From Gilvimarinus algae (GTDB taxonomy: Bacteria; Pseudomonadota; Gammaproteobacteria; Pseudomonadales; Cellvibrionaceae), in the NCBI RefSeq assembly GCF_030518215.1, contig NZ_JAULRT010000059.1:62001-126000 (forward strand): a stretch of 64,000 bases of DNA. The letters run 5' to 3'. Shown piece by piece: positions 8,718-37,657 of the stretch; within the stretch, counting starts at the first letter, position 1; every line of letters starts with the position of its first letter. The notes beneath the pieces were generated by a model. It had not been told where the DNA came from and did no database searches. It saw only the letters and a program-made list of their open reading frames with translations. A program made the translations under genes and the position numbers.

Positions 8718-9092
8718 ATGAAAAAGCAACAAGGTTTTACATTGATCGAACTGATGATTGTTGTAGCAATCATCGGTATTCTGGCGGCTATCGCACTGCC
8801 CCAGTACCGAGACTACACTCAGCGCTCAGCAAACGGCGCTTGCCTGGCAGAAGCTAAAGCGTACATGAGTGCTGCTGTATCCGATGCGGCAGATAACAGG
8901 GCGCCGACTGCGTTTACCGCTAGTGCTTGTACTACGGGCGCGACAATGTCTGTGGCAGATTACAATGCCGGCAATAGTTTGACGTTTGCCGCAAAGACAC
9001 AAGGTAACGCGTCCATCAAGCAAGACACAACTTGCGATGCTGGTAAAGGCTCTTGCGAGCTGGCTGCAGCTGGCGGTGGCGGTGGTACCTGA
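8718..9092 (+). CDS. pilA: Type IV major pilin PilA, short form with Gly5-Thr C-terminus
   Basis: This is the precursor of the structural pilin. The leader MKKQQG ends in Gly6; the mature protein begins [20 protein letters not shown] with Glu at position 5, the standard class IVa N-terminus for PilD processing. The mature chain is only 118 residues, shorter than the usual 140-160. Cysteines occur at 42, 71, 106 and 113; the last pair would close the C-terminal disulfide loop. After Cys113 come CELAAA, five glycines and a terminal Thr, an unusual flexible end that could be a glycan acceptor (inference). An AGGAGG-like site (TGGAGGC) precedes the ATG. It has its own sigma-54 promoter and terminator. 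Confidence 0.96.
9072..9086 (+). repeat. Five GGY codons at the end of pilA
   Basis: The stretch GGC GGT GGC GGT GGT encodes the oligoglycine tail of PilA. A trinucleotide repeat of this kind could change copy number by slippage without breaking the frame, altering tail length only. Confidence 0.8.
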
Positions 9093-9115
9093 GTTTAATC
9101 TAACGCGGGTCCCTC

Positions 9116-9142
9116 AAAGGCGTGCTTTGCACGCCTTTTTTA
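9116..9142 (+). terminator. Rho-independent terminator after pilA
   Basis: The stem AAAGGCGTGC pairs with GCACGCCTTT around a TTT loop and runs into a T tract. It lies 24 bases after the pilA stop codon and should isolate the abundant pilin transcript from the following gene. Confidence 0.92.
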
Positions 9143-9196
9143 TATGCTGTCTGTGATTTAACTACACATTATGTATGCCTCTATAAGGTGTGAGCA

Positions 9197-10933
9197 GTGT
9201 CGATAAAAATCTATTACGATGGCAAGTGTCCGTTCTGCCGCTCCTACACCCAGTATCTGCGCTTAAAAGAGTCTCAGGGGGAGCCTCAGCTTATCGATGT
9301 GCGGATCGACGAAGCGTCTCGGTTGATGCTCAGGAGCGAAGGATTTGATTTGGATCGAGGTATGGTCGTTGATGTAAAAGGGCGGTTATACAGCGGTGAA
9401 AAAGCTGTTGCTGTACTGGCTGGTTTGAGTAGTAAATCAAACCTGTTCAATCGTATTAATGGTTGGCTGTTCTCTTCAGTATATCTCGCTGCAATATTTT
9501 ATCCGGTGTTAAGGCTTGGGCGAAACTTGGTATTGCTGGTTTTGGGGGTTCGCCCTGTCAACGAAAATCCTGAAAATCAAAATTTAATACTTTTTTCATG
9601 TTGCTGGGGCTTCTTTAGTGTTTTGCACGTTCTGGTTTACTCCTACCAGTACGGGGTTGACCTATTTTGGTCTACCTATTTGGTGGCTGCTGCCGGCTTT
9701 CTACTCTTTGTTCGGCCGGATAAGGTTCTTTTGCTTCTTGCGTTGTTGTTGCTTGGCGTTTTTGACGCTTGGCTACAAATGCCATCTTTTTCTAATCACA
9801 CGATTATAAAAAACTTTTTTTTGTTGGCAATAATTTTCTCTGGGTTGACCTGCGCGTGGCGGGGTGACTCTTGGTCCGACTGGTTTGAGGTGGTTGCGCC
9901 AGTAGGTCGAGCTCTTTTGCTAATGATGTATGTATTCGGTGTGTTCCATAAGTTGAATAGTGGCTTTTTGGATCCGTCAGTCAGTTGTGCCGTGGAGTTG
10001 TGGCGTAGCATGCCTTGGCCATTGTACTTGGTCGATTGGGGCTGGGCTAGGTATTTATTTATATATGGCACTTTGATTGCAGAGGTGGCGATTCTAGTTT
10101 TCTTATTGGTGCCGCGGTTTCGCCATTGTGGCGTCTTGCTTGGTATAGCCTTTCATATGATGTTGGCGTTAAGTAATTACGCCATGTATACCGCCTTTTC
10201 GATGTTATCCGTAGTCTTACACATATTATTTATATCGCGGGCAAGTGCAAAAGCAATTATCGAGGACCCGTTAAGTCGACGGTTTTTATCGTTGTCTCGC
10301 TCTTGGAGGGGCTGGATTATAGCAGCTGCCTATCTTTCCGTGATTCGGGTTTTGGCGTGGATGAATGTATTTTGGGCGGTGACATTAGTTTGGTTCTTTT
10401 GGGTGGTGCCGTTTTTGTGGATTGTATTTAAGTATGGGAAAGACAAGCGTGATCATAGAGTCTCAGCTGTATTTTTTTCTAAAAAGCCGCTGTTGAATGT
10501 AATATCTCTGCTGTTTTTCGTTAATTGTATTACCCCTTATCTGGGATTAAAAACCGCGCAGTCCATTAATATGTTTGCAAATCTTCGCCTGGAAGACGGG
10601 GTCAGTAATCACTTGGTTCTCTCGTCGCCGCCCGGTCCATTTCTCTACCTCGAAAATGTAGTTAGAATTGTAAGTAGCACGGGAGTCGATTATTTCAATT
10701 ACGTAAAGGCAAATCAGCTATATATAACATACTACGACTTTTTAAATCGCCTTGAGCAGCATCCTGCTGCAATAGTAAGTTATGAACGGGAAGGCCATAT
10801 CTACTTGGATAAGACGGCCGAAGACCTTAGTGTGGAGATGGAAAAAGTGTTACACCCCGAATGGGTGAGAAAGTGGTTTCACTTTATTCCTGTTGATTTA
10901 AATACACCGAAAGCTTGCGCTTTAGATAGGTAG
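9197..10933 (+). CDS. Membrane protein: DCC thiol-oxidoreductase domain fused to HTTM-like domain
   Basis: A 578-residue protein whose N-terminal 110 residues look like a DCC family (DUF393) thioredoxin-like domain with the motif YYDGKCPFC. The rest is a polytopic membrane domain of about ten helices. Its motifs resemble the HTTM (vitamin-K gamma-carboxylase-like) family: HKLNSGFLDP, then GTLIAEVAILVFLLVPRFRH and FHMMLALSNYAMYTAF. A soluble tail of about 110 residues follows (NMFANLRLEDGVSNHL onward). It starts at GTG 9197 with AAGGTG upstream. It is the first gene of the AT-rich island after the pilA terminator. The substrate is unknown; a role in oxidising or modifying an envelope protein or lipid is conceivable but unproven. 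Confidence 0.75.
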   Translation: MSIKIYYDGKCPFCRSYTQYLRLKESQGEPQLIDVRIDEASRLMLRSEGFDLDRGMVVDVKGRLYSGEKAVAVLAGLSSKSNLFNRINGWLFSSVYLAAIFYPVLRLGRNLVLLVLGVRPVNENPENQNLILFSCCWGFFSVLHVLVYSYQYGVDLFWSTYLVAAAGFLLFVRPDKVLLLLALLLLGVFDAWLQMPSFSNHTIIKNFFLLAIIFSGLTCAWRGDSWSDWFEVVAPVGRALLLMMYVFGVFHKLNSGFLDPSVSCAVELWRSMPWPLYLVDWGWARYLFIYGTLIAEVAILVFLLVPRFRHCGVLLGIAFHMMLALSNYAMYTAFSMLSVVLHILFISRASAKAIIEDPLSRRFLSLSRSWRGWIIAAAYLSVIRVLAWMNVFWAVTLVWFFWVVPFLWIVFKYGKDKRDHRVSAVFFSKKPLLNVISLLFFVNCITPYLGLKTAQSINMFANLRLEDGVSNHLVLSSPPGPFLYLENVVRIVSSTGVDYFNYVKANQLYITYYDFLNRLEQHPAAIVSYEREGHIYLDKTAEDLSVEMEKVLHPEWVRKWFHFIPVDLNTPKACALDR

Positions 10934-10980
10934 GCTAGCCTAAGTATTCTCCCAGAGCAGTGTAATTTTCCTATTAACAA

Positions 10981-12846
10981 ATGGTTACCCCTGTGGATTT
11001 TTCTGACAAAGAGTTCTTAAGTTTGAGATCTGTCCAAGTATTAAGCATCAGTTTGGCATTGCTTCTTGCTATTGCTGTATTTGTCCCGGGCCTAGGGGGG
11101 GAATTTATTCTGGATGACGGCATAAACATTATTCAAAATCGCCTTCTATACCTGGAAACACTGAGCGTGGATGGTTTGCGGAATGCGGCTTTTAGTTTCC
11201 ACGATGGGCGGGGAAGCCGGCCGATACCGATGGTGAGCTTTGCAATGGATTACTGGCGCGCTGGAGGGATGCATGCGTCGACCTTTAAAGCAACTAATTT
11301 GGCTTTTCATGCGCTAACGACTTTCATTCTTATTTTTTTCTTGAGGCGCTTACTGCTGTTAATGGGTTGGGATTCGAGTCGTGCGTTCTGGGTGGGTCTA
11401 GGTTTGGCTTTAGCATGGGCTGTACATCCGTTGCAAGTGTCATCAGTTCTCTACGTTGTACAGCGTATGCAGACTATGGCTACGCTCTTTATACTGCTCG
11501 CAATGTGGTGTTATGTGGCTATGAGGCAGTTTCAGATAGATGGCGTCGGCCGCGGACGCCTGCAGGGCGTGGGTGTTATTATCTTTGGTCTACTGGCATT
11601 AGCATGTAAAGAAGATGCGCCTTTGCTTTTTGCGTACGTTTTGGCTCTTGAGTTGTCACTTCTGCGCTTTCAGGCTGCTGACGAAAAGGTATCTAGAGGA
11701 CTAAAACAAAGCTTCATAGTGCTTTCTTTCGTGGTTCTGTTTGGATACTTTTTTATCTTATTGCCCCAATACTGGCATTGGGCTGACTATCCTGGTAGAG
11801 AGTTCTCTTCCTGGGAGAGATTGCTGACGCAAGGGAGGGTTTTGATTATGTATTTAGGACAAATTATTGTCCCTCTACCGGATAATATGCCGTTTCTATA
11901 CGACAATTATGTCGTTTCAAGGGGCTTGCTGAAGCCATTAACGACTCTCCTTTCAATTTTACTAATTGTCGGAATACTGCTCTTGGCGTGGTTGTGGCGC
12001 TGTTATAGACCCTTGTTTTCCTTCGGTGTGCTCTTATTTCTATTTGGCCACTCCATTTCAAGTAATGTGATCCCACTGGAGTTGGTTTTCGAGCACAGGA
12101 ATCACTTTCCGCTTATTGGAGCTTTGATAGCAGTTTTTGAGCTACTAAAATTAGTCTGCGATCGCTTGACAGTAGAGAAATTTTCCAGACTGGCTTGCTT
12201 TGGTGTGGTGCTTATGTTGTTGATGTTTCTTACATTGCTGCGCTCCTTCACCTGGGGAGATCCCGTCCGACATGGCGAGAAGCTAGTTGAGCTGGCAGCT
12301 CAGTCCCCTAGGGCTTGGGCGCAACTTGGTGGCGCGTACTACGACAAATACAAAGAGTTAAGGGAAGAACGTTACTTGATTAAAGCAATTGAGGCAAATG
12401 AGACTGGGCTAGAGCACGTTCAAGCCCCATCATTGGCCACCAATATCGTAGTATACAAATCCATCTTAGGTCAGCCTGAGAGGGATGACTGGAATCTTCT
12501 ATACCGGATGCTTCGAGAGGGGACTTCTGAGTTGCAGAGCAAGCTGGCGGTTTGGACTTTGCTGGACAATGTGCGAAGAGGTACAAATTTAAGCGTTGAG
12601 GAGGTCGTTAACGCTATCGAAATTCTTGCGGAGAGTTTCGAGCTTGGGGCTGCGGAGTATTTGCAGTTGGCCGTTTTTGTGTTTAAAAGTGCCGATGCGG
12701 AAAGGTCGCTCCCTCTTTTTCTGGAATTTTCTCAAAGTGCTGAGGCGAATGATCCTAGGGTGGCGCGTATCGCTAAAGAGCTAGAAGGCGTCGGTAAGCT
12801 GGATTGGGCTAAAGAAATTTTGGCTGTAAATGTAGGCAAAATGTAG
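10981..12846 (+). CDS. GT-C (TMTC-like) membrane glycosyltransferase, copy 1
   Basis: A 621-residue protein with about ten membrane helices and a soluble C-terminal part of about 190 helical, TPR-like residues. After the first helix it has FILDDGINI, with Asp45-Asp46 in the position of the catalytic acidic pair of GT-C enzymes (PMT, TMTC). RPIPMVSFAMDYW and FKATNLAFHA then match the RP...SFA...N..H pattern of TMTC-like proteins, and HPLQVSSVLYVVQRMQT begins at His149. Such enzymes use polyprenyl-phosphate sugars on the periplasmic side. The gene has a tandem paralogue at 12914 and a DPM-synthase-like GT2 at 14785. A pilin or other surface protein is the suspected acceptor (inference). Confidence 0.72.
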   Translation: MVTPVDFSDKEFLSLRSVQVLSISLALLLAIAVFVPGLGGEFILDDGINIIQNRLLYLETLSVDGLRNAAFSFHDGRGSRPIPMVSFAMDYWRAGGMHASTFKATNLAFHALTTFILIFFLRRLLLLMGWDSSRAFWVGLGLALAWAVHPLQVSSVLYVVQRMQTMATLFILLAMWCYVAMRQFQIDGVGRGRLQGVGVIIFGLLALACKEDAPLLFAYVLALELSLLRFQAADEKVSRGLKQSFIVLSFVVLFGYFFILLPQYWHWADYPGREFSSWERLLTQGRVLIMYLGQIIVPLPDNMPFLYDNYVVSRGLLKPLTTLLSILLIVGILLLAWLWRCYRPLFSFGVLLFLFGHSISSNVIPLELVFEHRNHFPLIGALIAVFELLKLVCDRLTVEKFSRLACFGVVLMLLMFLTLLRSFTWGDPVRHGEKLVELAAQSPRAWAQLGGAYYDKYKELREERYLIKAIEANETGLEHVQAPSLATNIVVYKSILGQPERDDWNLLYRMLREGTSELQSKLAVWTLLDNVRRGTNLSVEEVVNAIEILAESFELGAAEYLQLAVFVFKSADAERSLPLFLEFSQSAEANDPRVARIAKELEGVGKLDWAKEILAVNVGKM

Positions 12847-12913
12847 CTACGGTCACCGTAAAAGGGGAAGGTTTGATGTGCAATTATAAGCGCCAAATTA
12901 AACTACTGAAAAG

Positions 12914-14788
12914 GTGAAGTCCTTGCACTTAAGTATTTGTTGGAATAGGTATTTATACGTATCCCTAGGCTTTACGATTGCAGTGGTTGCAGCAATTTTG
13001 CTGTCGATAGGCATAAATGGTGGTTTCTTTTTTGATGACCATTCAAATATCGTAAACAATACGGCGTTGAATGTGAGCGACTCAAGCAGTCTGAAAGACG
13101 TTATACGAGCTGCTTACAGTTTTGAAGCGGGCGGTGGGTCTCGCTCTCTAGCGATGCTTACTTTTGCTTTTGATTCGTGGCGATCTGATATGAATCCGGC
13201 TGCTTTTAAGGCAACCAATATTATCATTCATTGTCTCACCTGTCTTGTCCTATGCCTGTTTGTCCGGCAGCTACTTTTGCTTTCTGGTTGTAGTGTTAAG
13301 CGCTCTGAAATTTCAGCACTTGCGATCACTGCGGTATGGGCGATACATCCATTGCAGGTTTCATCTGTTCTGTATGTCGTACAGCGAATGCAGACCCTCG
13401 CCACATTGTTCACGCTACTTGCTCTGTTTCTATACCTTCGGATGCGGAATGCGCAGATGAAAGACCTGCATTGCCAAAGATATGGCATTTTGGCAGCACT
13501 TTCTGCGCTGCTTGCCTTCGCCTCAAAAGAGGATGCTGCATTAATACCTCTGTATTTGTTGGTTTTGGAAATAACAATTTTAAAGTTTAGGGGGAGTAAT
13601 GGTTTGGACTTGGAAGGGATGCGCCGAATCTATTATTTTTTGACTTTTATCGGCATCCTCATATATTTATTTGTTGTGATTCCCTATTTTTGGAGTTGGG
13701 AAAACTATTCTGGCAGAGATTTTAATAGTGTTGAGCGTCTATTGACTCAGGCTAGGGTTCTTACAGTTTACCTGCAGCAGATACTATTTCCCTGGCCAGA
13801 CTGGATGACATTTTTCTATGATCATATTTCCGTCTCCAGAAGCCTTCTGAACCCTCCGAGTACATTTTTTTCGATAGTGTTAATACTTATTGTTTTGGTG
13901 AGCGCTTGGTGTCTTCGTATCGTGCAGCCCGTATTCTCATTCGGGTTTTTGTTTTTTTTTGCAGGCCACTTCATGACAAGCAATGTCATAAGCTTGGATT
14001 TGGCCTATGAGCATAGAAATCATCTACCTATGGTCGGTGTATTCCTTGCAGTAGGAGATATTCTGTCGACAGTTGTCAGGCGCTATGGTTGGTTTTGTAG
14101 GAGTTCTCTGTTTTTTCTCTGTATTGTATTGTGTGTTGAAGGTCTGGCTACCGCTCGAAGAGCACACTATTGGGGGGATGATTTGCGGTTGGCTGAATAC
14201 CATAAACGCATAGCTTTGGAGTCTGAGCGCGCTTGGTTATCACTTTGCACCGCTCATTTTGAGAGGCATGGTATAAATAAGGATGGCAAACACCTCGCTT
14301 TAGCCATAGATGTTTGTCAAGAAGGGGCTAATCGTTTATCTCGATCTGCCATTTTGGTGAGTAACTTAGTTACCTACAAGGCAATCAATGGAACAGTTTC
14401 CTCGTCAGATTGGAAGCTATTAGAAAAGCGTTTGAGAGACGCCCCTATGAACATTCAGAATCAAGGGATTTTGTGGGCAACTCTTTTAAATGCCGAGCGA
14501 GGGCTTTTTAGTGAAAAAGATGAAAATGGTGTGCTCCAAACGATTAATATAATTGCAAGTAGAATTGAAATCCCCCCTGAGTCGTTGTTACGAATCGCTG
14601 TTTTTATCTTCAATGAAACGTATCAAACAGAAATGGCGCTCCCATACTTGAAGCGCGCTGCTTCTCAAATTCCTAAAGAGGATCCACTCATGGAGCTTAT
14701 TATTAGTAGGCTTTCTGAAGCTGGGAAGGATGATTGGGTGGAGCTTCTAAGAAATGTTAATCAGAAAAGTGTTAGGGGTAGTACATGA
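12914..14788 (+). CDS. GT-C (TMTC-like) membrane glycosyltransferase, copy 2
   Basis: A 624-residue paralogue of the preceding gene, starting at GTG. It shares the layout: first helix, FFFDDHSNI (Asp41-Asp42), HPLQVSSVLYVVQRMQT starting at His145, GRDFNSVERLLTQARVL, and EHRNHLPMVG before the last helices. The soluble tail differs more. Matching stretches use different synonymous codons, so the duplication is old, not an assembly artefact. Its stop overlaps the start of the GT2 gene (ATGA at 14785), which argues that both act together. Two copies may recognise different sugars or acceptors. Confidence 0.72.
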   Translation: MKSLHLSICWNRYLYVSLGFTIAVVAAILLSIGINGGFFFDDHSNIVNNTALNVSDSSSLKDVIRAAYSFEAGGGSRSLAMLTFAFDSWRSDMNPAAFKATNIIIHCLTCLVLCLFVRQLLLLSGCSVKRSEISALAITAVWAIHPLQVSSVLYVVQRMQTLATLFTLLALFLYLRMRNAQMKDLHCQRYGILAALSALLAFASKEDAALIPLYLLVLEITILKFRGSNGLDLEGMRRIYYFLTFIGILIYLFVVIPYFWSWENYSGRDFNSVERLLTQARVLTVYLQQILFPWPDWMTFFYDHISVSRSLLNPPSTFFSIVLILIVLVSAWCLRIVQPVFSFGFLFFFAGHFMTSNVISLDLAYEHRNHLPMVGVFLAVGDILSTVVRRYGWFCRSSLFFLCIVLCVEGLATARRAHYWGDDLRLAEYHKRIALESERAWLSLCTAHFERHGINKDGKHLALAIDVCQEGANRLSRSAILVSNLVTYKAINGTVSSSDWKLLEKRLRDAPMNIQNQGILWATLLNAERGLFSEKDENGVLQTINIIASRIEIPPESLLRIAVFIFNETYQTEMALPYLKRAASQIPKEDPLMELIISRLSEAGKDDWVELLRNVNQKSVRGST

Positions 14789-15645
14789 AGGAAATTTCTG
14801 TGATCCTCCCAGCGAAGAATGAGAGTGCTTCCGTGGGCCAAACAGTTTCACTGATTAAGAGTCATTGGGCTGGTGCTGAAATAATTGTTGTCGACGATGG
14901 CTCAACTGACGACACCGCCTGTGTTGCTGAGAGTTCTGGTGCGAGAGTTGTAACTCACCCCTATAGTAAGGGCAATGGTGCTGCGATAAAAACTGGTTTG
15001 CGCGCGGCGTCGAATAATATAGTTGTCTGTATGGATGCTGATGGACAGCACCGCGCTGAAGATATACTGGTTCTGTTGGAAAAGTTAGAGGCCGGCTTCG
15101 ACATGGTAGTTGGTTCGCGCAGTAGGCAGGGGCAGGCTGGGTTTCACCGATCGCTTGCGAATGGATTTTACAATCGATTTGCCAGCTGGATGGTAGGTCA
15201 CAAAATTGAGGATCTTACTTCCGGTTTTCGTGCTGTAAGGAAAGACAAATTCATGGAGTTTATTAGTTTGTTGCCTAATAAGTTTTCGTATCCAACGACT
15301 ATTACCATGAGCTTTTTCCGGGCTGGATACTCGGTTGGTTACGCTCCTGTAAATGTTTTGAGTAGGGCGGAGGGGTCAGCTAGTCATATTAGCCCGTGGA
15401 AAGATGGTGTTCGCTTTCTTTTGATAATTTTCAAGATCGGAACTTTGTTCTCGCCCTTAAAACTGTTTTTTCCAATTTCGTTGGTGCTAGGTTTAAGTGG
15501 GATTTCTTATTATGCTTATACTTATTTGACTGATGGAAGGTTTACTAATATGGGTGCGCTGCTATTCACTACGGCTATTCTCGTGTTTTTAATGGGGTTG
15601 GTTTCGGAGCAAATAACAGCGCTAATGTATAAGGGTAAAAATTAA
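14785..15645 (+). CDS. GT2 glycosyltransferase, polyprenyl-phosphate-sugar synthase-like
   Basis: A 286-residue GT-A enzyme resembling dolichol-phosphate mannose synthase. The N-terminal domain has ILPAKNESASVG, VVDDGSTDD, KGNGAAIKTGL and the metal-binding MDADGQH; SGFRAVRKDKF follows. Two membrane helices occupy the last 70 residues. Family knowledge suggests transfer of one sugar from a nucleotide donor to undecaprenyl phosphate on the cytoplasmic face. Translation is coupled to the upstream GT-C gene (4-base overlap), so it probably makes the donor for one or both GT-C enzymes (inference). Confidence 0.85.
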   Translation: MKEISVILPAKNESASVGQTVSLIKSHWAGAEIIVVDDGSTDDTACVAESSGARVVTHPYSKGNGAAIKTGLRAASNNIVVCMDADGQHRAEDILVLLEKLEAGFDMVVGSRSRQGQAGFHRSLANGFYNRFASWMVGHKIEDLTSGFRAVRKDKFMEFISLLPNKFSYPTTITMSFFRAGYSVGYAPVNVLSRAEGSASHISPWKDGVRFLLIIFKIGTLFSPLKLFFPISLVLGLSGISYYAYTYLTDGRFTNMGALLFTTAILVFLMGLVSEQITALMYKGKN

Positions 15646-15760
15646 GGGATCTCTTTCGCTGGGGGAAATGTGTCGCGGCGAATGGTCTCTTAGATTTTCG
15701 TTTAAGGTCATTTGCTTGAGAGCTTTTAATGGTATGTTTTAATGAAAATACGCGGCTTTC

Positions 15761-17014
15761 ATGACTAGTGGTGCTGTTGCTACAGCTACAATTCGAACTG
15801 GCTTGGTTCTTGGCGTGCGATTGCTCGTGCTGGCGGGAACGCTATTGCTTGTTGCGAGAATGCTTGGTTCTCAACAGTTCGGTGTTTTTGCTGGGGCGTG
15901 CTCTTTGGCGCTTTTTCTCGGCTCGCTTTCTTCATTTGGATCCCAGCTAATGATGCTGCGTGCAGTTTCAAAGAATGCAGAAAGTAGTGAGGAAATATTG
16001 TCCTATGCTATTCCCCTTGTGCTGCTCCTCGGCGCCATCGCTTTAGTCTGTTTCTTGGTCGTCATGTCGTGGGCTATTCCTTCCGCTCAAATTTCATTTG
16101 GCGTGCTATTGGCTATTGGATTCGCAGAAACCATTCTTCAGCCTTTCTTGGGATTGATGTCGGCCGAGCATCACGGTTTAGGGAGGGTTGCCAGGTCCCA
16201 AGCTTTGCAATTTTCTCCCTTAGCTTTAAGATTTATTTTTGCGTTGTTAGTATCCTTTATTGGCTTTCAGGATGTTCTGAGTGCTTATGCATTGGGCTAC
16301 TTCTTGGCATCAGTTGCGGCGTTGGTTTTAGGTGCATACTATCTTCCTAAGTCCTGGCCAAATTGGAGAAAATGGCGTGTTGTAACGCTTACTTATATCA
16401 GCGCTTCTTGCTCTTATGCTGCCATTAATTTCTGCAAATCTGGTTCCGCTGAGCTTGACAAAGCGGTTGCTTTAAAGCTCCTTCCGGTTGATCTGGTGGG
16501 TCTGTATGCGGCGGGGTCTCGTGTTTTGGGAGCGCTAATGCTTCCAGTTTCTGCTATGGTCGTTTCCGCAGTTCCTTATATATTTCGGTCTCAGGATGCC
16601 CATTTGCACGATACTCGTCGAATGGTTTTCTATATGTCTGGTGTCTCTTTTGCCTATAGTCTGTTTTTGCTGGTCGGGCTATGGATAGCTTCTCCATTCA
16701 TAGAAATAATTTTCGGAGATGGTTTCAAGGGGCTTTCGGAAATACTGCGCATATTTTGCTTTGCTATTCCTGGATTGTCGTTACGATTGGTTTCGGGGAA
16801 TGCTCTAATGGCGATTGGAAGGCCTTGGCTAAGGGTTGGCCTAGAGGTGATCGGGCTGGTTACTTTGGTGGCATCAAGTATATGTTTTGTTATTTTTGTT
16901 GGTGAAAAATACATGCCTTTTGCTGTCATTCTGTCTGAAAGCATTATGGGCGTTTTCGGCATCTTGATTCTTAGGTCTGTTCTGTATAAAAAGAGCATCC
17001 CCTCCTGCTTCTAG
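15761..17014 (+). CDS. Polysaccharide flippase (Wzx/MATE-like, oligosaccharide repeat-unit transporter)
   Basis: A 417-residue protein with about 12 predicted membrane helices and the polysaccharide-biosynthesis flippase pattern: an N-terminal LLVARMLGSQQFGVFAGACSLALFLGSLSSFG segment and a central RVLGALMLPVSAMV. Such proteins flip undecaprenyl-diphosphate-linked glycans to the periplasm. A 115-base gap with no recognised promoter separates it from the GT2 gene; asnB follows after 15 bases. No polymerase (Wzy) or ligase gene is recognised in the cluster. Confidence 0.82.
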   Translation: MTSGAVATATIRTGLVLGVRLLVLAGTLLLVARMLGSQQFGVFAGACSLALFLGSLSSFGSQLMMLRAVSKNAESSEEILSYAIPLVLLLGAIALVCFLVVMSWAIPSAQISFGVLLAIGFAETILQPFLGLMSAEHHGLGRVARSQALQFSPLALRFIFALLVSFIGFQDVLSAYALGYFLASVAALVLGAYYLPKSWPNWRKWRVVTLTYISASCSYAAINFCKSGSAELDKAVALKLLPVDLVGLYAAGSRVLGALMLPVSAMVVSAVPYIFRSQDAHLHDTRRMVFYMSGVSFAYSLFLLVGLWIASPFIEIIFGDGFKGLSEILRIFCFAIPGLSLRLVSGNALMAIGRPWLRVGLEVIGLVTLVASSICFVIFVGEKYMPFAVILSESIMGVFGILILRSVLYKKSIPSCF

Positions 17015-17029
17015 TGCCGAGGTTCTATT

Positions 17030-18553
17030 ATGTGTGGTTTCATCTTTCAGCTAAGTCAAAGGGCGAAATGTGCTGATGATTTTGGCAGGGCTTTAGAGCG
17101 AATTTCTTGGAGAGGGCCGGATGCTCAACGGATTGTCCGGTACAATCAAGGAAAAGTTCTTTTAGGCCACTGCCGATTGGCCGTAGTCGATTTGAGTGAT
17201 GATGCCAACCAACCAATGGAGTCCGTTTGCGGGCGATATGCTATTGTTTTCAATGGTGAAATATACAACCATGATTTTATCAGGAAAAAACTCAATTTAA
17301 AGTGTAAGACTAAGTCGGATACCGAGACTATTCTTGAGGGATACTCATTGGTTGGAGATGATATTTTCTCGCTCCTCGATGGAATGTTTTCTTTGGTCAT
17401 TTATAATCGAGCTACAGGCCAATGGACCGCTGCGCGAGATGCTTTTGGTATCAAGCCGCTGTTCATGTGGCGAAAAAATCAAGAGATAATTTTTTCTTCG
17501 GAGGCTTCAGTTGTTGCAAGCCTAGCAGGAGCCATTCCATGTCCTATTGCTTTAGCCGAATGGAGGGTGATTCGCCGACCGCTACCAGGGGCAAGTTTTT
17601 TTCAGGGTGTAGAGGAAGTTACCCCTGGCCAGGTCGTTAAATCGTCGGGAGAGACCTTTTTTCATTGGAAGTGGGCGGCGGCAAATGAGTCCTTCGAGCA
17701 AAGTGCTTTTGAAGAAAGGGTCAGGCGCAGCGTTGATTTGCATGGAATGAGTCATGTTGAAAACGTTTCTCTGCTAAGCGGAGGGTTAGATAGTGCTATT
17801 GTTGTTTCCTTGGCTGGCACCAGCGCTGCATACTCAGTAGGGCTTGAGTATAATAATGAGTTCGAAGGGGCGCAAGAGACCGCTGATCTGGTGGGAGCCT
17901 CTTTAAAGAAAGTATCGGTGTCAGAAGACGAGCTGGTCTCTACTTGGAAGTATCTGACCCGTCTTCGTGGTGAGCCGCTCAGTTTGCCAAATGAAGGATT
18001 AATTTACAATGTTTGCCGGAAAATGACCCCACAGCAAAAAGTTGTTCTTACCGGAGAGGGGGCGGATGAAATATGTTTTGGGTACGATCAGATATTTCGT
18101 TGGGCCTCAGGCTTGAATGAGCTTGACACGCATGCTTTTCTTGATCTGTACGGTTATTCTGCTGATTGTCGATCTGAACGTTTGGAGTCATTTGTAGATC
18201 TCCTGAAAAGAGGTAAAAGCCCCATAGAGTTTGTTGAGGATTTTTTCCTCTTAGTTCATTTGCCATGTTTGCTTAGACGAATGGATTTTGCGTCAATGGC
18301 CGCCTCTAAAGAGGCTAGAGTTCCGTTTGTTTCTAAATCACTCATAGGGTATTGCTATCGCCAGCCGTCATCGTTAAAAATCAATTCGCTAGAGTCTAAG
18401 CTCCCAATTCGAAAATTCGCAGAGAGGCTTGGTTTATCTGGAGCATTACAGCGAAAAAAAATTGGATTTTCTGCTCAATTTACTTCTAATGCTTCTAGAA
18501 AGGAGTCTTACAGAAGTTTTCAGGATATAGTTTTGGGGGAATTGAAATGGTGA
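17030..18553 (+). CDS. Asparagine-synthase-like glutamine amidotransferase of a glycan cluster
   Basis: A 507-residue protein with an N-terminal class II glutaminase domain (Cys2 of MCGF, RGPDA, GHCRLAVVDLS, NGEIYN, SDTETILEG) and a C-terminal AsnB-type ATP-pyrophosphatase domain (LSGGLDSAIV, GEGADEICFGY, EARVPF). It is shorter than usual AsnB (about 550-640). In surface-glycan clusters such enzymes amidate sugar carboxylates; the nucleotide-sugar dehydrogenase at 21300 would provide a uronic acid. Plain asparagine synthesis cannot be excluded. It overlaps the next gene by 7 bases. Confidence 0.85.
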   Translation: MCGFIFQLSQRAKCADDFGRALERISWRGPDAQRIVRYNQGKVLLGHCRLAVVDLSDDANQPMESVCGRYAIVFNGEIYNHDFIRKKLNLKCKTKSDTETILEGYSLVGDDIFSLLDGMFSLVIYNRATGQWTAARDAFGIKPLFMWRKNQEIIFSSEASVVASLAGAIPCPIALAEWRVIRRPLPGASFFQGVEEVTPGQVVKSSGETFFHWKWAAANESFEQSAFEERVRRSVDLHGMSHVENVSLLSGGLDSAIVVSLAGTSAAYSVGLEYNNEFEGAQETADLVGASLKKVSVSEDELVSTWKYLTRLRGEPLSLPNEGLIYNVCRKMTPQQKVVLTGEGADEICFGYDQIFRWASGLNELDTHAFLDLYGYSADCRSERLESFVDLLKRGKSPIEFVEDFFLLVHLPCLLRRMDFASMAASKEARVPFVSKSLIGYCYRQPSSLKINSLESKLPIRKFAERLGLSGALQRKKIGFSAQFTSNASRKESYRSFQDIVLGELKW

Positions 18554-18963
18554 TTGGTTATACGGCGGGAGTTTTTGATTTGTTTCATGTTGGGCATGTA
18601 AATGTTCTAAGGAACTCAAAATCATTATGTGATAGGTTAATAGTTGGCGTGACAGTTGATGAGCTGGTTGCATATAAGTGCAAAAAGCCTGTAATTCCCT
18701 ACGAGGAACGGGTCGAGATAGTGAGGTCGTGCAAGTACGTTGATTTGGCTGTGCCTCAGTTGTCTATGGATAAATTGGATGCGCACGATAGGTATGGGTT
18801 CAATCTTATGTTTGTGGGCGATGATTGGTATAAGACAGAGAGATGGAAAGATATTCAAGAAAAATTATCTAATAGAGGAGTTAAAATCATATATTTTCCT
18901 TATACTAGGACGACGTCATCAACGCTAATCAACTCTACTTTAGAGAGTCTTCGTTTGCTTTGA
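18547..18963 (+). CDS. Glycerol-3-phosphate cytidylyltransferase (TagD-like)
   Basis: A 138-residue cytidylyltransferase with the nucleotide-binding AGVFDLFHVGH near the N-terminus and the C-terminal RTTSSTLIN that corresponds to the RTxGxSTT motif. Length and motifs fit TagD, which makes CDP-glycerol from CTP and glycerol-3-phosphate. The likely user of CDP-glycerol is encoded on the opposite strand immediately downstream (18994-20154). Base composition is very AT-rich: bases 18841-18900 hold 14 G or C of 60. Other CDP-alcohols remain possible. Confidence 0.88.
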   Translation: MVIGYTAGVFDLFHVGHVNVLRNSKSLCDRLIVGVTVDELVAYKCKKPVIPYEERVEIVRSCKYVDLAVPQLSMDKLDAHDRYGFNLMFVGDDWYKTERWKDIQEKLSNRGVKIIYFPYTRTTSSTLINSTLESLRLL

Positions 18964-18993
18964 GAGTTGTTTTTTGAGTTTAAGGCCAGAGGC

Positions 18994-20154
18994 TCAAATT
19001 TTCTCGAGGATTCTTTGCGTGCACCTTTTGCTGGCATTGCCGTCGGCATAACTTGAATAAAGCTTGTTTTTTATTGATGCGCGTAGTGTTGAGCTGGCGT
19101 TTAGTGACTTTTCTGGGTTGCCTAAAGCAGTGTTCATCAATTCAATCATTTCGCTCGTGTTTTTTGCGATACTATCGAATCTAAACTCTGGACCGAGGAA
19201 GAACCCTTCTTTGAAAGGTGGTGGAACATCTAAAAATATCGTTGGGCGGTCGAGTAGCAGCCAATCAAACGCGATGGAAGACCAGTCGCAAATTAGAAGG
19301 TCGCAAATTAGCAGTAGTGATTCAGTGTTTGGATACTCTTCGAAAGATCTAAATATAATCCTATCTGAGTGGTATGAGGTTTTTTCTCTCGAGTTTAGGT
19401 GAGCTCTGACAATAATCACTGATTCTGATTGTTTTGCGAAGCAGTCTAGTTTAGAAAGCAGCGATGCTTTATGCTCCTCAAAAGGGAAGATGCTTCTATG
19501 TTTTGAATCTTGTTGCCAGGTCGGCGCAAATAATACGATTTTTTTCGACTGTGGAATTCGGAAATCGCTTTTAATTTTTTTTGTGTTCTCGCTGTTGTTG
19601 ATCAAGATATCTGTTCTTGCGTAGCCTGTTATTTTAACTTTGCTGGCGTTGAAGCCAAATTTTCCTGTATATAGTTGAGCTATATAAGGCGAGGTTACCC
19701 ATGTTTCATCGTACTTATGTTGTATTGAAAAGTTTTTTGGTTTGAATCCCTTGAAGGGTATTCCGTGCCAAACATCAAAAAATTTTATGCTGCTGAGAGT
19801 TGTCAATATGCTCATCGAGTGCAGTCCGTGACTGCTTACAATTGCGCTCGCTTGGCTGAGGAGAATGGCGGTCTTTGGGTGATAAGCTAGGTAGCTATTG
19901 TAGCCGCCTTTCCTAAGCACCCTATTATAGTTTGCGTCTAAAGTTAAGAATATGGGCTTGGTTGTTTTTGAGTGGTGATTTTCTATATCTGTATAGATCG
20001 CGAGTAGGTTTCCGCAAAGTTTATGTCCATAGAAAACGATAACTTTTCTATTGCTTTTTTTTTGTCTGATTCTTAGGGGTAGCGACAGAAAGGCGTTGAT
20101 TGCTAGCGCTGCCAACGATAAAAGATGAAGAGGGTTTTTTTTATCTACCTTCAT
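18994..20154 (-). CDS. CDP-glycerol glycerophosphotransferase-like protein (TagB/TagF family)
   Basis: A 386-residue protein with an N-terminal hydrophobic anchor (about 8-26) and the GT-B type CDP-glycerol transferase fold. Family markers seen are VWHGIPFKG, GYARTDIL, LFAPTW, CDWSSIAFDWL and the C-terminal YADGNASKR. TagB/TagF enzymes add glycerol phosphate from CDP-glycerol to lipid-linked or polymeric glycans. It is the last gene of a leftward three-gene unit and converges on the TagD-like gene with a 30-base gap. In a Gram-negative bacterium it would put glycerol phosphate on a surface glycan rather than build teichoic acid (inference). Confidence 0.85.
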   Translation of the reverse strand: MKVDKKNPLHLLSLAALAINAFLSLPLRIRQKKSNRKVIVFYGHKLCGNLLAIYTDIENHHSKTTKPIFLTLDANYNRVLRKGGYNSYLAYHPKTAILLSQASAIVSSHGLHSMSILTTLSSIKFFDVWHGIPFKGFKPKNFSIQHKYDETWVTSPYIAQLYTGKFGFNASKVKITGYARTDILINNSENTKKIKSDFRIPQSKKIVLFAPTWQQDSKHRSIFPFEEHKASLLSKLDCFAKQSESVIIVRAHLNSREKTSYHSDRIIFRSFEEYPNTESLLLICDLLICDWSSIAFDWLLLDRPTIFLDVPPPFKEGFFLGPEFRFDSIAKNTSEMIELMNTALGNPEKSLNASSTLRASIKNKLYSSYADGNASKRCTQRILEKI

Positions 20155-20164
20155 TGTTTTTGGC

Positions 20165-21325
20165 TTATTTGGCTATCGCTGCGCTAATGCGATCTTTAAA
20201 ATTATCCCAAGAGAAAGATTCTGCAAACTTAAGGCAATCTCTTTTATTTGTCGGGTTCTTCAATATTGTCTTGATGATTTCTGATAAGGCCTGATAGTTT
20301 CCTTGGCTTGCCAAGTGTCCGGAAACAGATTCGGCTACTGAATCAACGGTGCCCCCGGTTGAGAATCCCGCTGTGGGTGTTCCGCACGCTGCCGCTTCAA
20401 TCGCGACCATTCCAAATCCCTCCGGGTCTCCTTGTATCTCTCTTACAGGAAAAACATGCACGTCGCTAGCTGCATAGGCGATTTGTAGTGTTCTAAGGTC
20501 AGTTATGTTGCCCGTGAACACTAGGTTTGACGTTAGACCATGTTTTCCGGCTTCTTCTAAAATTTCTGATTTGGTTTGAGCTTTAGCGTAAAGAGAGTTT
20601 TGAGGGGTTTCGCCGACAATTAATAATTTTACGGTCGGAAACTCTCTTGCAATATCGGCTAATGATTTCGCGACAAATTCTTTGAGTCCCTTTCTTGTAG
20701 TTAGGCGCCCCACGGATAGCAATACCGGTCCTCCTTGCAAGCCATACAGCTGTTTGAAACTATTTACTTCCATTGCGCTTGGTTGCTGCTCAGGTATATC
20801 TACCCCTGGGTGAATAACGACGATTTTGCTTTCCAAAATTCCGCGCTCTACTAGTAAGGCTTTTGTTGGTTTGCTGTTGGCGATTACCGTATTCATTCGT
20901 CTTAGGCTAGGAATCCAGAAGCGTTTGTATAGCGGGTGTGCAACAGCCACATCCAGCCCATGTGTGTAGGTGATCGCCTTGGCGCCAATAAGCTTTGCGC
21001 AGACTAGAGCAATGGGAGCCGTTAGTCCGCTTCCGGCGATTATGTGTGTCGGGCGAAGTTTAAACGTGTGGAAGATTGCATTGAGCTGGGCGTATAGTAA
21101 AAAAAGCCAAATGGGCGTTAAGGGCGCGCCTGAAAATTGGACATTCGCGGGAAGACTGTCTCTCGAGATGCTCGGTCCGATTACGGCGACCTTGTTATGT
21201 TTCGCCAACCCTTTTGCCATATTCAAATTCAGTCTTTCCATTCCCCCGATCAATGGCGGCAGATTGCGGGTTACAATTAGAATCCTATTGTCTGAAGTCT
21301 TAGGCTTTGACAACGTTTTCACCAT
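20165..21325 (-). CDS. GT4-family glycosyltransferase
   Basis: A GT-B glycosyltransferase of about 386 residues. The N-terminal fold has [14 protein letters not shown] and the donor-side fold has [10 protein letters not shown] and [17 protein letters not shown], the E-x7-E signature of GT4 enzymes. These build glycans from nucleotide sugars at the cytoplasmic face of the membrane. A TTG at 21349 would extend it by eight residues; the ATG at 21325 is preferred, though neither has a clear ribosome-binding site. It overlaps the dehydrogenase gene by 26 bases, so translation is probably coupled. The sugar specificity cannot be read from the sequence. Confidence 0.85.
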
Positions 21326-22619
21326 CAAGTCGGTTACGTGTGTCAACAATCGTCAAGCTGTGTTCTTGAAGCTGAAAGTAATCGAAATCATCGTGGTCTG
21401 TGGCCAAGACTATGCAGTCGTATGACCGTAATCTCTCCGGTGTTAATGCCACGCTTGATAGGTCAAAGTGATAGTCTCGCTTATTTGGAAATGTGGGCAC
21501 ATATGGGTCTGAGTACTCAATAAGTGCGCCCTTGTTCTGTAGCTGCGCCATTATTTCCACTGCGGGAGACTCTCGTGTGTCGTCTATATTCTTTTTGTAC
21601 GCGAGACCAAGCACCAAAATCCGACTGCCGTTTATTGATTTCTTTCGCAGGTTGAGCGCTTCCGATACCTTGTTCACCACCCACTCCGGCATCTGGTGGT
21701 TTACCTCGCCGGCTAATTCAATAAACCGTGTATTTATGCCGAATTCTTTGGCCTTCCAGGTTAGGTAAAAGGGGTCTATGGGAATGCAGTGCCCTCCCAG
21801 ACCAGGGCCGGGAGTGTAGGGTACAAAGCCGAAGGGCTTAGTGGCGGCAGCTTCTATAACCTCGTGTATGTTTATACCCATTTTATCGGCGACTATTTTC
21901 ATTTCGTTTACCAGGCCGATGTTAACGGCCCGGTGTATGTTCTCCAGAAGCTTAGTCATTTCTGCCACTCTGGTGTCACTAACGGGTACAAGGGTGTTGA
22001 TGGCGTGGGCGTAAAGGGCTTTCCCTAGTTTTAAGCAGTTCGGTGTCATACCGCCAAGAACCTTGGGTATCGTGGCCGTTGTATAGTTGGGGTTGCCTGG
22101 ATCTTCGCGCTCAGGGGAGTAAATCAAAGCGCAATTTTTGCCGGCAGTAAAACCTTGCTTCTTCAATCTGGGGTGCAACAACTCTTCTGTTGTGCCCGGC
22201 CATGTTGTGCTCTCCAAGGAGAGTATTTGTCCGGCACGAAAATAAGGTAATATAGAGTCTACTGTGTTGGTGACGAACGATAGGTCTGGTTGGTGGTGTT
22301 GATCCAATGGCGTAGGCACGCAGATAATCTGCGCGTCCACCTCTGTACTTTTGCTAAAGTCGGTGGTGGCGTAAAACCCATTGTTGAGGGCAGCGGTTAT
22401 ATCGCCTCCACTTATGCGCTTTATATAGCTCTTTCCCGAGTTTAGCTGATCTACTTTGTTCTGATCGATGTCAAAGCCGGTGACTTTTACCCCTGCCTCG
22501 GTAAAGCGCAAGGCCAGAGGTAGACCCACATAGCCCAGGCCGTAGATTCCCACATGGAAGTCGCCCGACGCCAGTCGTCCTTCTAGTTGCTTAAGGGGGT
22601 TATTGTCTTCGACTGACAT
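21300..22619 (-). CDS. Nucleotide-sugar 6-dehydrogenase (UDP-HexNAc dehydrogenase, TviB/WbpA type)
   Basis: A 439-residue NAD-dependent enzyme that oxidises C6 of a UDP-sugar to the uronic acid. It has the Rossmann motif [23 protein letters not shown], and the catalytic cysteine in [12 protein letters not shown]. The absence of the KKDTxDxR-type UDP-glucose dehydrogenase pattern, and the [13 protein letters not shown] segment, fit the UDP-N-acetylhexosamine branch (WbpA, TviB, WecC). It is the first gene of the leftward unit with the GT4 and glycerophosphotransferase genes. UDP-GlcNAc or UDP-GalNAc cannot be told apart here. Confidence 0.9.
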
Positions 22620-22726: not shown

Positions 22727-23599
22727 TTAATCAAATGATGCGATGACTCTCATGGATAAATCTACGGCCTTACAGTGTTTGGTCAATGCCCCCACTGATA
22801 TGCGGCTGATGTTTTCAAGCACTGCTCTCTGGGTTTCCAGTTGGGAGATGTTCAAACCGCCGGATAGCTCGAGGTGGGAGGTTAATCCGCGGCCTTGTAA
22901 ATGTTGATTAATCTCTGTTAGCTCCATTTCATCCAGCATAATAATTTCGGCGCCTGCAGCGATGGCCCTATCCAGCTCATCCAGAGTTTCCACCTCTACC
23001 TCCACCGGTTTACCGGGTGCTAACTCGCGAGCCTTCTTGATCGCTTGGGCGATGCTGCCTGCCGCTGCGATGTGGTTTTCCTTGATTAAAAAAGCGTCGT
23101 AAAGCCCCAGTCGGTGGTTGTGGCAGCCTCCGCAGGCGACGGCGTATTTTTGGGCGCTTCGCAGCCCGGGTATGGTTTTACGCGTGTCGAGTATTTTGAT
23201 GGGCAGGTCTTTGACCAGGTCGGCGTATTGTCGGGCCGTGGTGGCTGTGCCGGAGAGTAGTTGGACGAAGTTGAGCGCGGTTCGCTCGCCGGTTAATAGG
23301 GAGCGTGCCCGGCCCTGGAGTTCAAAAAGTACACTGTCGGCGGCTGCCTTCCCGCCATCGTCGATGTGCCAAGTGATTGTGACCTCGGGGTCCAACTGGC
23401 GGAAGGTTTCCTCTACCCAGTCTTTACCGCAAAATATGCAGTCTTCACGGGTGATGACCTCGGCTTTGGCGAGTTGCTCGGCTGGAATCAGTTGAGCGGT
23501 GATGTCGCCTGAACCCACATCCTCTTCCAGGGCGGCTGTCACGTTCTTGATGATGTCGCGGCGCAGGTTGGGGATGGTATCGGCATAAAGCTTGATCAT
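22727..23599 (-). CDS. nadC: Nicotinate-nucleotide pyrophosphorylase NadC (quinolinate phosphoribosyltransferase)
   Basis: NadC converts quinolinate and PRPP to nicotinate mononucleotide in NAD synthesis. The 290 residues show EEDVGSGDIT, GERTALNF, LDTRKTIPGLR, GGCHNHR and LIKENHI, all standard. A longer frame starts at 23680, but the ATG at 23599 is preceded by AGAGAG and gives the normal N-terminus. It is the first backbone gene on the far side of the pilA-linked island; in Pseudomonas nadC also lies next to the pilA locus. Confidence 0.97.
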   Translation of the reverse strand: MIKLYADTIPNLRRDIIKNVTAALEEDVGSGDITAQLIPAEQLAKAEVITREDCIFCGKDWVEETFRQLDPEVTITWHIDDGGKAAADSVLFELQGRARSLLTGERTALNFVQLLSGTATTARQYADLVKDLPIKILDTRKTIPGLRSAQKYAVACGGCHNHRLGLYDAFLIKENHIAAAGSIAQAIKKARELAPGKPVEVEVETLDELDRAIAAGAEIIMLDEMELTEINQHLQGRGLTSHLELSGGLNISQLETQRAVLENISRISVGALTKHCKAVDLSMRVIASFD

Positions 23600-23878
23600 G
23601 GGGCTCTCTCTGGATGTCCGGTGTGTGACGCTATTGTACTCAAGGCGGCGGAGGCCTGCCCGAACTTCCGCTTGGCACATTAAGTTACCTTGTTGGTCGC
23701 GGCGACATTTTATATAACCTGGATTCTGGGTTCTCAGTGGATCAATAGCTTTCAGTTATTTTCCTTACGGCTTTTTAGCGGCAAATGTGATATTCCGCTC
23801 ATTGTGTCAAACTCTGGCTGTGCTTGCCGATACAGATACCTATACTAGTCAGTGAAAGGTTCCCATTGGGTTGTCATC

Positions 23879-36181: not shown

Positions 36182-37657
36182 GTGGCGGTGAGCGAAGAAA
36201 TTTTGATCAATGTGTCGCCGGTAGAGACCCGGGTGGCCCTCGTGGACAATGGCGTCTTGCAGGAGCTTCACGTCGAACGTATTCACCGCAAAGGCTTTGT
36301 CGGCAATATCTATAAGGGCAAGGTTGTGAGAGTGCTGCCGGGTATGCAGGCGGCGTTTGTCGATATTGGTCTAGAGCGAACGGGCTTTATCCATGCTCAG
36401 GAACTGACCCCGGAGCTGGTGGAGGGCGAGCCAAGACGCACAGAGCTTCCCGACATTCGCACACTGGTGCGCGAGGGGCAGACCCTTTTGGTACAAGTCA
36501 GCAAAGACCCCATCAGCACGAAAGGTGCGAGGCTTACCACCCACATCACTCTTTCTTCCCGGTATCTGGTGTACATGCCCAACAGCCCTCATATTGGGGT
36601 GTCCATTCGTATTGATGACGACAAAGAGCGCGAGCGCCTGCGCACAGCGGTGGAGTCCTCTGTCAAAGAGGGAGGTGGCCGTGGCGGGTTTATTGTCCGC
36701 ACTGTCGCCGAGGGCATCGAAGAAGACGCTGTGGTGGCCGACATTCCCTTTTTGCAAAAGCTCTGGCAAGACCTTAACGATAAGCTCTCCGCTGTGGAGG
36801 CGCCGGCGGTTATCTACGAGGATATGCCGCTGACTCTGCGCTCGCTGCGCGATCTGGCGCGATCTCCGATTGAAAAAATCCGCGTCGACTCACGTCAGAG
36901 TTGGTCGCAGATGCGCGAGTTTGCCAACGAGTATTGCCCTCAGCTGATCAATATTATCGAATGCTACCAGGGAGAGCGGCCGCTGCTTGATCTCTATGGT
37001 GTGGAGGACGAGATTGCCAAAGCGCTCGATACTCGTGTCGCGCTCAAATCGAGTGGCTATCTGATTATCGAACAGACCGAGGCCATGACCACCATCGATG
37101 TCAACACCGGTGCCTTTGTCGGGCGTCGCAATCTTGAAGAGACAATTTTCAAAACCAATATGGAGGCGGCGGGGGCGATCGCCCGGCAGCTTCGGGTGCG
37201 CAATATTGGTGGCATTATTGTTCTCGACTTTATCGATATGCAGGACCCAGAACATCAGCGCCAGGTGCTGCGCACCCTAGAAAAGGCGCTGGAGAAAGAT
37301 CACGCCAAAACCAAAATTACCGGTGTGTCTGAGTTGGGTCTGGTGGAAATGACGCGTAAGCGCACCCGAGAATCGCTGGGTCAGATGCTCTGCGAGACCT
37401 GTCCTGTATGCCGCGGCCGGGGCGAAGTGAAGTCGGCTGAAACCGTTTGCTATGAAGTCTTTCGCGAAATTTTGCGCGAAGCCCGGGCCTACGATAACGA
37501 AAAGTTTTTGGTGTTGGCCGCCTCGGTGGTGGTTGACCGTCTGCTCGATGAAGAGGCCGCCTATGTGGCCGATCTAGAGGCTTTTATAGGCCGTACCATC
37601 GAATTTCAGGTTGAACCTCTGTTCAATCAGGAGCAGTACGACATTGTCTTGGTGTGA
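36182..37657 (+). CDS. rng: Ribonuclease G
   Basis: RNase G is the endonuclease that matures the 5' end of 16S rRNA and degrades some mRNAs. The 491 residues have the S1 domain (GNIYKGKVVRVLPGMQAAFVDIG), the 5'-sensor, the metal-binding aspartates in TTIDVNTGAFVG and IIVLDFIDM, and the zinc link CETCPVC. It lacks the long C-terminal scaffold of RNase E. It starts at GTG 36182 (or GTG 36188) with AAGAGAG upstream. Confidence 0.97.
   Translation: MAVSEEILINVSPVETRVALVDNGVLQELHVERIHRKGFVGNIYKGKVVRVLPGMQAAFVDIGLERTGFIHAQELTPELVEGEPRRTELPDIRTLVREGQTLLVQVSKDPISTKGARLTTHITLSSRYLVYMPNSPHIGVSIRIDDDKERERLRTAVESSVKEGGGRGGFIVRTVAEGIEEDAVVADIPFLQKLWQDLNDKLSAVEAPAVIYEDMPLTLRSLRDLARSPIEKIRVDSRQSWSQMREFANEYCPQLINIIECYQGERPLLDLYGVEDEIAKALDTRVALKSSGYLIIEQTEAMTTIDVNTGAFVGRRNLEETIFKTNMEAAGAIARQLRVRNIGGIIVLDFIDMQDPEHQRQVLRTLEKALEKDHAKTKITGVSELGLVEMTRKRTRESLGQMLCETCPVCRGRGEVKSAETVCYEVFREILREARAYDNEKFLVLAASVVVDRLLDEEAAYVADLEAFIGRTIEFQVEPLFNQEQYDIVLV

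Follow-up and report, generated by a model that had tools for sequence, protein, structure and literature searches.

A TfpW-like GT-C/GT2 cassette beside pilA in Gilvimarinus algae, a candidate pilin glycosylation system

The question raised by this locus is what the accessory genes lying between the pilin gene pilA and nadC in Gilvimarinus algae do, and in particular whether the neighbouring pilin is their target. The window analysed, i.e. the whole stretch of 64,000 nucleotides (positions 62,001 to 126,000 of NZ_JAULRT010000059.1), is a portion of a single contig (C59) of a 4.2 Mb genome. By the list of open reading frames (ORFs), the island within it comprises ten genes (9197-22619), bounded by pilA (8718-9092, + strand) and nadC (22727-23680, - strand). 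The island is likely to be a pilin-accessory cassette, which would O-glycosylate the adjacent pilin by means of an undecaprenyl-phosphate-sugar, a flippase and GT-C membrane glycosyltransferases, with variable tailoring genes.

A preliminary description of this DNA had reported ten AT-rich accessory genes between pilA and nadC, and this is confirmed, the G+C content being 44.6% in the island and 56.5% in the remainder of the window; the individual G/C counts given there (14 of 60 at 18841-18900, 35 of 60 at 36841-36900) are exact. Windows of 1 kb outside the island have a mean G+C of 56.6% (standard deviation 3.2), and the lowest-G+C stretch of island length, taken in 500-base steps across the window, begins at 8501. 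The + strand carries, in order, genes for a DCC1-like protein, GTC1, GTC2, a GT2, a flippase, an amidotransferase and a cytidylyltransferase; the - strand, on the nadC side, carries a CDP-glycerol-type transferase, a GT4 and a nucleotide-sugar dehydrogenase. Nine of these genes had been correctly named, the tenth (9197-10933, encoding the DCC1-like protein with multiple transmembrane segments just after pilA) having been left out.

The GT-C/GT2 core and its linkage to pilin genes

GTC1 (10981-12846, + strand) is classed as a TfpW-like GT-C membrane glycosyltransferase with a C-terminal TPR region on the basis of motifs, a family profile and TfpW homology; GTC2 (12914-14788, + strand) is, by sequence comparison, a second such protein, 38-39% identical to GTC1. 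Neither has a Pfam or NCBIfam match at E 0.01, and a PDB sequence search with the GTC membrane domain alone gave nothing up to E 10; the assignment of both as GT-C enzymes rests on the motifs and on homology to TfpW. In a profile of 39 GT-Cs (A1), the members of which are 20-53% identical to GTC1, nine residues are invariant, i.e. present in all 39 (D45, R80, H110, Q161, R162, K210, E371, H372 and R373). D46 (38 of 39), E211 (37) and D308 rarely vary, and P81 is present in 24. Position 164 is T in 17, Q in 14, A in four and V in four, never D, hence the RxD motif is absent. The C-terminal part of the GT-Cs is TPR by the family profile, and Pfam matches to the 39 proteins are chiefly to TPR, with one weak match to PMT_2.

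A search with GTC1 matched 30 of 144 genomes of the host's family, 27 of them at E <= 1.2e-19, and in all 27 a GT-C copy lies at a prepilin gene (with the DCC1-like gene intervening in the window); the other three are one contig fragment and two weak matches. At the level of the order, the A1 profile matched 57 of 332 genomes at E 1e-25. Neighbourhoods were inspected in 41 of the 56 such genomes other than that of the window, and a prepilin gene adjoins the GT-C in 35 (on the opposite strand in two, with an intervening ORF in one); contig ends cut off three more. The preliminary description held that finding the same genes mostly away from pilA would count against it, and for the GT-C core that is not what these family and order genomes contain. 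GT-Cs also occur at pilin genes in Marinobacter sp. F3R08, Alcanivorax sp. S6407, Acinetobacter sp. KCTC 92772, a Lysobacteraceae bacterium and Luteimonas kalidii. Two of 20 pseudomonad loci (L207 and L222) have a close GT-C and GT2 type, and in both a prepilin gene lies just ahead of it. The earlier view of the system as lineage-specific is thus not upheld, the same pilin class and GT-C being present in Marinobacter, Alcanivorax, Acinetobacter and Lysobacteraceae, with a close GT-C and GT2 in the pseudomonad genus. In L104-L109 pilA is not near nadC and the GT-C is still at pilA; what it is tied to is therefore the pilin, not nadC. How far weak co-occurrences might arise by chance was judged rather than computed.

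Two arrangements may be recorded beside these. In L112 (genome G142) the GT-C following pilA is divided between two ORFs, of 271 and 374 residues, and may be broken in that genome. In Acinetobacter sp. KCTC 92772 (L036:9495-13138) a pilin, a GT-C, a second pilin and a GT2 are interleaved.

The third element of the core is the GT2 (14785-15645, + strand; PF00535), a predicted polyprenyl-phosphate-sugar synthase of AglJ/GtrB/ArnC-like type with two hydrophobic C-terminal segments by a simple hydropathy count. It follows the GT-C(s) immediately in 15 of 18 GT-C-bearing intervals, the exceptions being L059, L089 and L098. Its nearest solved structures are chains of ArnC, the GtrB-type sll0501 and dolichyl-phosphate-mannose (DPM) synthase. 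Among NCBIfam models it scores best with AglJ (133 bits, with a cutoff of 325), a model that matches 21 of 21 proteins in an alignment (A6) of the window GT2 and 20 hand-chosen relatives, as do PpgS, ArnC and further models. The window GT2 is 54-78% identical to these 20 relatives, whereas the GT-Cs diverge; the GT2 after the GT-C in L106, which is just 27% identical, was left out of A6. We read this conservation as suggesting that one kind of lipid-phosphate sugar is used with many acceptors.

The interval holding this core is variable. It is bordered on the left by pilB (6523-8232, - strand) and on the right by nadC, both located in the ORF list and by searches, which in the 144 family genomes matched pilB in 132 and nadC in 136. 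The two genes are at most 30 kb apart in 61 genomes, with a gap of 0.9-28 kb (the lengths and the count of 61 being read by eye from the match tables); in the eight genomes of the genus the gaps are 1.6, 1.8, 2.2, 2.5, 3.6, 11.9, 14.5 (the window) and 19 kb. ORFs were called in 60 further intervals besides the window, in G113 only partially. A GT-C is present in 18 of the 61 intervals, and in three of eight within the genus. Of the five sister species lacking it, four hold two pilin genes in the interval (one with an extra ORF), and the fifth holds a pilin gene, an MdoB-like phosphoglycerol transferase and a TfpZ-like gene. Other intervals sampled contain TfpX/TfpZ-family genes and MdoB-like or beta-lactamase-family proteins, one having a PglL-like Wzy_C protein. 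The proposal that glycan genes are tied to the pilin at a hot spot, for which the preliminary description had suggested comparing gene content across relatives, is borne out by this variability.

The pilin itself varies with the GT-C. The window pilA encodes a short four-cysteine pilin with a 124-residue precursor (PF07963, N_methyl), the proposed acceptor, of a class to which pilins linked to GT-Cs in other genera also belong (57-84% identity to seven relatives). The window and Marinobacter pilins are 84% identical overall and 75% past residue 30, with pilB at 67%; in the five sister species without a GT-C, pilB is 83-92% identical to that of the window and the pilins do not exceed 36% identity beyond residue 30. 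Two genomes of one genus (L064 and L075) have nadC 93% identical, GT-Cs 31% and pilins 46%. Over 63 loci, identity in the pilin variable region correlates with GT-C identity with a Mantel r of 0.48 (p 0.0002, relatedness not being controlled), falling to 0.34 once eight four-cysteine loci are removed. This set takes one GT-C of at least 560 residues per pilin junction, with a gap below 400 bases (2500 for the window).

Several observations weigh against the glycosylation of the adjacent pilin. Three of the 41 order genomes (L187, L189 and L191) have a GT-C locus with no prepilin gene nearby, G131 has an extra GT-C copy away from pilA, and G122 has one at the nadC end. Weak GT-C matches in L030 and L031 are not at pilA, yet they outscore TfpW (86 vs 64 bits). 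With nadC as a control, covariation is weak (partial r 0.23, p 0.03, 13 usable loci). The pilins point to no obvious acceptor residue: among eight of them, only Ser37 and Thr8 are invariant Ser/Thr positions. A plain GT-C system leaves the GT4, amidotransferase and CDP-glycerol genes unexplained. Finally, directly after pilA there is an intrinsic-terminator-like hairpin (9116-9138, + strand; a 10-bp stem, then TTTATAT). Of 63 distinct pilA/GT-C junctions, 59 have a like hairpin, versus 4% of shuffles, but so do 55 of the 71 pilA genes whose loci lack a GT-C. The hairpin was for that reason rejected as a mark of accessory cassettes, and the terminator is no evidence for glycosylation; terminator-like sites are not in excess over the region as a whole.

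Relation to TfpW and other glycosylation systems

The closest characterised relative is TfpW, which is reported to add arabinofuranose to the pilin of Pseudomonas paraeruginosa PA7/Pa5196 and is described in a few pseudomonads. pilB was matched in 24 of 25 genomes of the pseudomonad genus, and the upstream region was taken from 20 of the 24 (one only 468 bases). The locus taken as that of PA7 has pilA, a 641-residue protein (TfpW) and a 245-residue protein, in agreement with the pilA-tfpW-tfpX order described (PMC12369383). PA7 TfpW matches the GT-C profile at E 3e-18 over positions 7-464, and profile-profile alignment with hhalign gives Prob 99%, E 3.8e-18, 395 columns and ~20% identity; the Escherichia coli ArnT control, which runs to the end of its fetched stretch, gives Prob 3%. 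By these comparisons the GT-Cs are distant TfpW homologues. Because L030 and L031, which are not at pilA, match the profile better than TfpW does, the relation is that of sisters in a wider group rather than orthology.

TfpW and the GT-Cs are similar in length, are encoded at pilA in loci of the same kind, and share membrane-domain homology and the DD, RP and KE motifs. The TfpW gene is directly 3' of pilA, as are the GT-C genes of two sister-species cassettes, which have no DCC1-like gene in between; in the window one gene intervenes. By contrast, TfpW has an RFD sequence, including the RxD aspartate that the GT-Cs studied here lack, and the window has a tandem pair of GT-Cs with a GT2 donor synthase within the cassette, whereas the arabinofuranose genes of PA7, including ubiA, are described as lying away from the TfpW locus (PMC12369383). 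The assertion that the system is of a type different from both TfpO and TfpW therefore holds for TfpO, there being no Wzy_C match in the nine island proteins scanned with Pfam, and is not supported for TfpW.

In make-up the core resembles the three-component systems, in which a polyprenyl-phosphate-sugar synthase, a flippase and a GT-C modify O antigen or O polysaccharide (PMC11127046), e.g. O-antigen glucosylation and the ribofuranose system founding GT136. The cassette likewise has a synthase, by family resemblance only, and a Wzx-like flippase, but here the components are linked to a pilin. An undecaprenyl-phosphate-arabinofuranose donor has been proposed for pilin glycosylation (PMC11127046). 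There are also parallels with the TMTC1-4 O-mannosyltransferases (GT105), which combine GT-C and TPR regions, DD, RP and KE corresponding to TMTC motifs M1, M2 and M4; by contrast, the GT-Cs lack RxD and have EHRN where TMTC proteins have ERxxY (PMC7801869). No TMTC family was among the 25 listed of the 27 Pfam families matched by the 39 GT-Cs. TfpO, TfpM, PglS and PglL glycosylate pilins, and the TfpO, TfpM and PglS genes adjoin their targets (PMC12645811), but these are O-antigen-ligase-type enzymes, of which none was found in the island. Nine island proteins have no Wzy_C match in Pfam, the tenth being assigned as the dehydrogenase by NCBIfam, and none of the ten matches NF041437 (TfpX/TfpY/TfpZ) at E 0.01.

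Proposed pathway and competing explanations

Gene content, the variable interval, the pilin linkage, the homology and the conserved motifs are what the analysis shows; catalysis, donor, acceptor and the order of steps we infer as follows. The GT2 would make an undecaprenyl-phosphate-sugar, the flippase (15761-17014, + strand; Polysacc_synt, PF01943, E 3.5e-11) would turn the lipid-linked sugar across the membrane, and GTC1 and GTC2 would move the sugar onto Ser/Thr of the pilin. The remaining island genes would make and decorate the glycan, i.e. provide uronic acid, amidation and glycerol phosphate, and alleles of pilA and of the cassette would be exchanged together at the pilB/nadC site. A Wzx-type flippase is not present in every locus; L042 and L071 have LPG_synthase_TM proteins instead, and our guess is that these act as flippases.

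The candidate tailoring genes start with an asparagine-synthase-like amidotransferase (17030-18553, + strand; PF00733 and GATase; TIGR01536 281 bits, cutoff 267), which possibly amidates a uronic acid, its putative sugar substrate. A TagD-like cytidylyltransferase (18547-18963, + strand; CTP_transf_like, PF01467; TIGR01518 83 bits, under the cutoff of 165) is followed by three - strand genes. These are a CDP-glycerol glycerophosphotransferase-like gene (18994-20154; Glyphos_transf, PF04464, E 4e-42), a GT4 (20165-21349; PF00534 and PF13439) and a nucleotide-sugar 6-dehydrogenase (21300-22619). The dehydrogenase is over the cutoff of TIGR03026, UDP-ManNAc dehydrogenase models coming next, under cutoff, and its substrate is probably a UDP-HexNAc.

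One alternative, which we consider possible though rather unlikely, is that two systems share the hot spot, the GT-Cs and GT2 acting on the pilin, and the nadC-side GT4, dehydrogenase and CDP-glycerol enzymes making an unrelated surface polysaccharide. The strand switch at 18963/18994 would mark their border, and the nadC-side genes vary by locus, most of them being absent from small loci, e.g. L071 and L076. However, relatives of the CDP-glycerol, GT4 and dehydrogenase genes recur in GT-C pilin loci. TagF-like genes with short TagD-like genes are present in two (L083:12166-13751 and L203:9575-11132), and a third (L066:8216-11321) has a TagF-like gene with a 442-residue, partly TagD-like protein. 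These loci are from other genera, and their gene pairs hint that pilin glycans may be decorated with glycerol phosphate. GT4 relatives (45-67% identical) are found in L032, L033, L035 and L064, and the dehydrogenase is 79 and 85% identical in two GT-C-bearing sister genomes. Moreover, the TagD- and TagF-like genes of the window, on opposite strands, straddle the proposed border.

A second alternative, unlikely in our estimate, refines rather than replaces the pilin-glycosylation reading. An oligosaccharide would be built on undecaprenyl phosphate, started by the AglJ-like GT2, extended by the GT4 and others, decorated and flipped, after which the GT-Cs would move it en bloc onto the pilin, by analogy with the Haloferax pathway, which uses dolichyl phosphate and AglB. 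As to single sugar versus preassembled oligosaccharide, the tailoring genes favour the latter and the TfpW precedent favours stepwise arabinose. The AglJ matches of the GT2 proteins fit an oligosaccharide, as do the tailoring genes of the family loci, often GT4s, GT2s, methyltransferases and nucleotide-sugar enzymes (119 of 156 accessory proteins; 25 of 87 families listed), kinds of enzyme whose roles are listed for the Haloferax pathway (PMC3871713). The genome has no match to a Bac_transf initiator, WecA-type initiators lying outside that search, and its single Wzy_C protein is outside the island. Against this, the AglJ score is far under its cutoff and other models also match all 21 proteins, AglB acts on Asn and belongs to a different GT-C group, TfpW reportedly adds arabinofuranose, and the tailoring genes may have their role in some other glycan.

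It is very unlikely that the GT-Cs and GT2 modify lipopolysaccharide or another envelope glycan, their linkage to pilA reflecting a shared recombination hot spot only. Three-component GT-C systems do act on O antigen (PMC11127046), but the GT-C is at pilA even where nadC is elsewhere, covaries with the pilin and is related to a reported pilin transferase. That the GT-Cs have ceased to glycosylate and, like TfpY, help pilin assembly would suit their accessory position and the TfpX/TfpZ-family genes at the same site in sampled relatives, but is scarcely credible given catalytic-type residues invariant in 39 proteins and a conserved GT2 travelling along.

Other features of the locus and implications

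Two classes of acceptor site were considered and rejected. N-glycosylation was set aside since the invariant Asn97 is within an N-X-S/T sequon in just three of eight pilins. A C-terminal Thr, as for TfpM, was rejected as a general site, only the window pilin of the eight having one. That pilin ends (9060-9092) in a glycine-rich tail with a terminal Thr, not found in this form in the seven relatives.

The DCC1-like gene (9197-10933, + strand) sits between pilA and GTC1 and encodes a membrane protein of some ten hydrophobic segments that carries a thiol-disulfide domain (PF04134, E 5e-7); we take its membrane part to be HTTM. Full-length relatives are present in five genomes including that of the window, at pilA in two (the window and G053) and elsewhere in three (G491, G868 and G870). 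The relative at the G053 pilA locus (L102:3023-4798) is 51% identical and lies behind a beta-lactamase-family gene. With relatives at pilA in only two of five genomes, a role as pilin modifier was rejected, and because the other three carry theirs away from pilA the gene is treated as cargo, which it probably is.

In relatives, an MdoB-like phosphoglycerol transferase adjoins pilA in L044 (1999-4205) and L051 (1761-4095), followed in L044 by a TfpX/TfpZ-like gene; a phosphoglycerol modification of pilin is possible there. NF041437 is over cutoff in L048 and L058 and under cutoff in L044. A recurring order of pilin, 409-419-residue ORF, 231-237-residue ORF and second pilin is found in L048, L050, L053, L054 and L072, the two ORFs of L048 encoding beta-lactamase-family and TfpZ-family proteins. 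The pilA-nadC intervals of L047, L062, L080 and L086 contain very long ORFs (1593-1959 residues).

The cassette would be a pilin glycosylation system of TfpW-like kind that brings a donor synthase of its own, widespread and unannotated; no description of a GT-C/GT2 pilin cassette was found among the matches listed from titles and abstract starts of the open-licence literature. A more far-reaching form, which we consider unlikely, is that the system corresponds in bacteria to the dolichyl-phosphate pathway of archaea. On undecaprenyl monophosphate, an AglJ-like first step would begin an oligosaccharide with amidated uronic acid and glycerol phosphate, which a TfpW/TMTC-like GT-C with TPR would transfer en bloc to pilin Ser/Thr. 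This would be a further glycosylation mechanism, with a conserved donor synthase and a fast-evolving transferase fitted to each pilin allele.

The relatives of TfpW form a family almost without Pfam or NCBIfam annotation, and in most cases the gene of a conserved donor synthase comes next. If the pilin-glycosylation reading is correct, glycosylation of pilins from lipid-phosphate sugars would be common, and pilin alleles and transferases would move as units, perhaps under phage pressure, as reported for TfpO and TfpW and here suggested by extension. The natural pairs of GT-C and acceptor would then provide a panel for tests of acceptor recognition.

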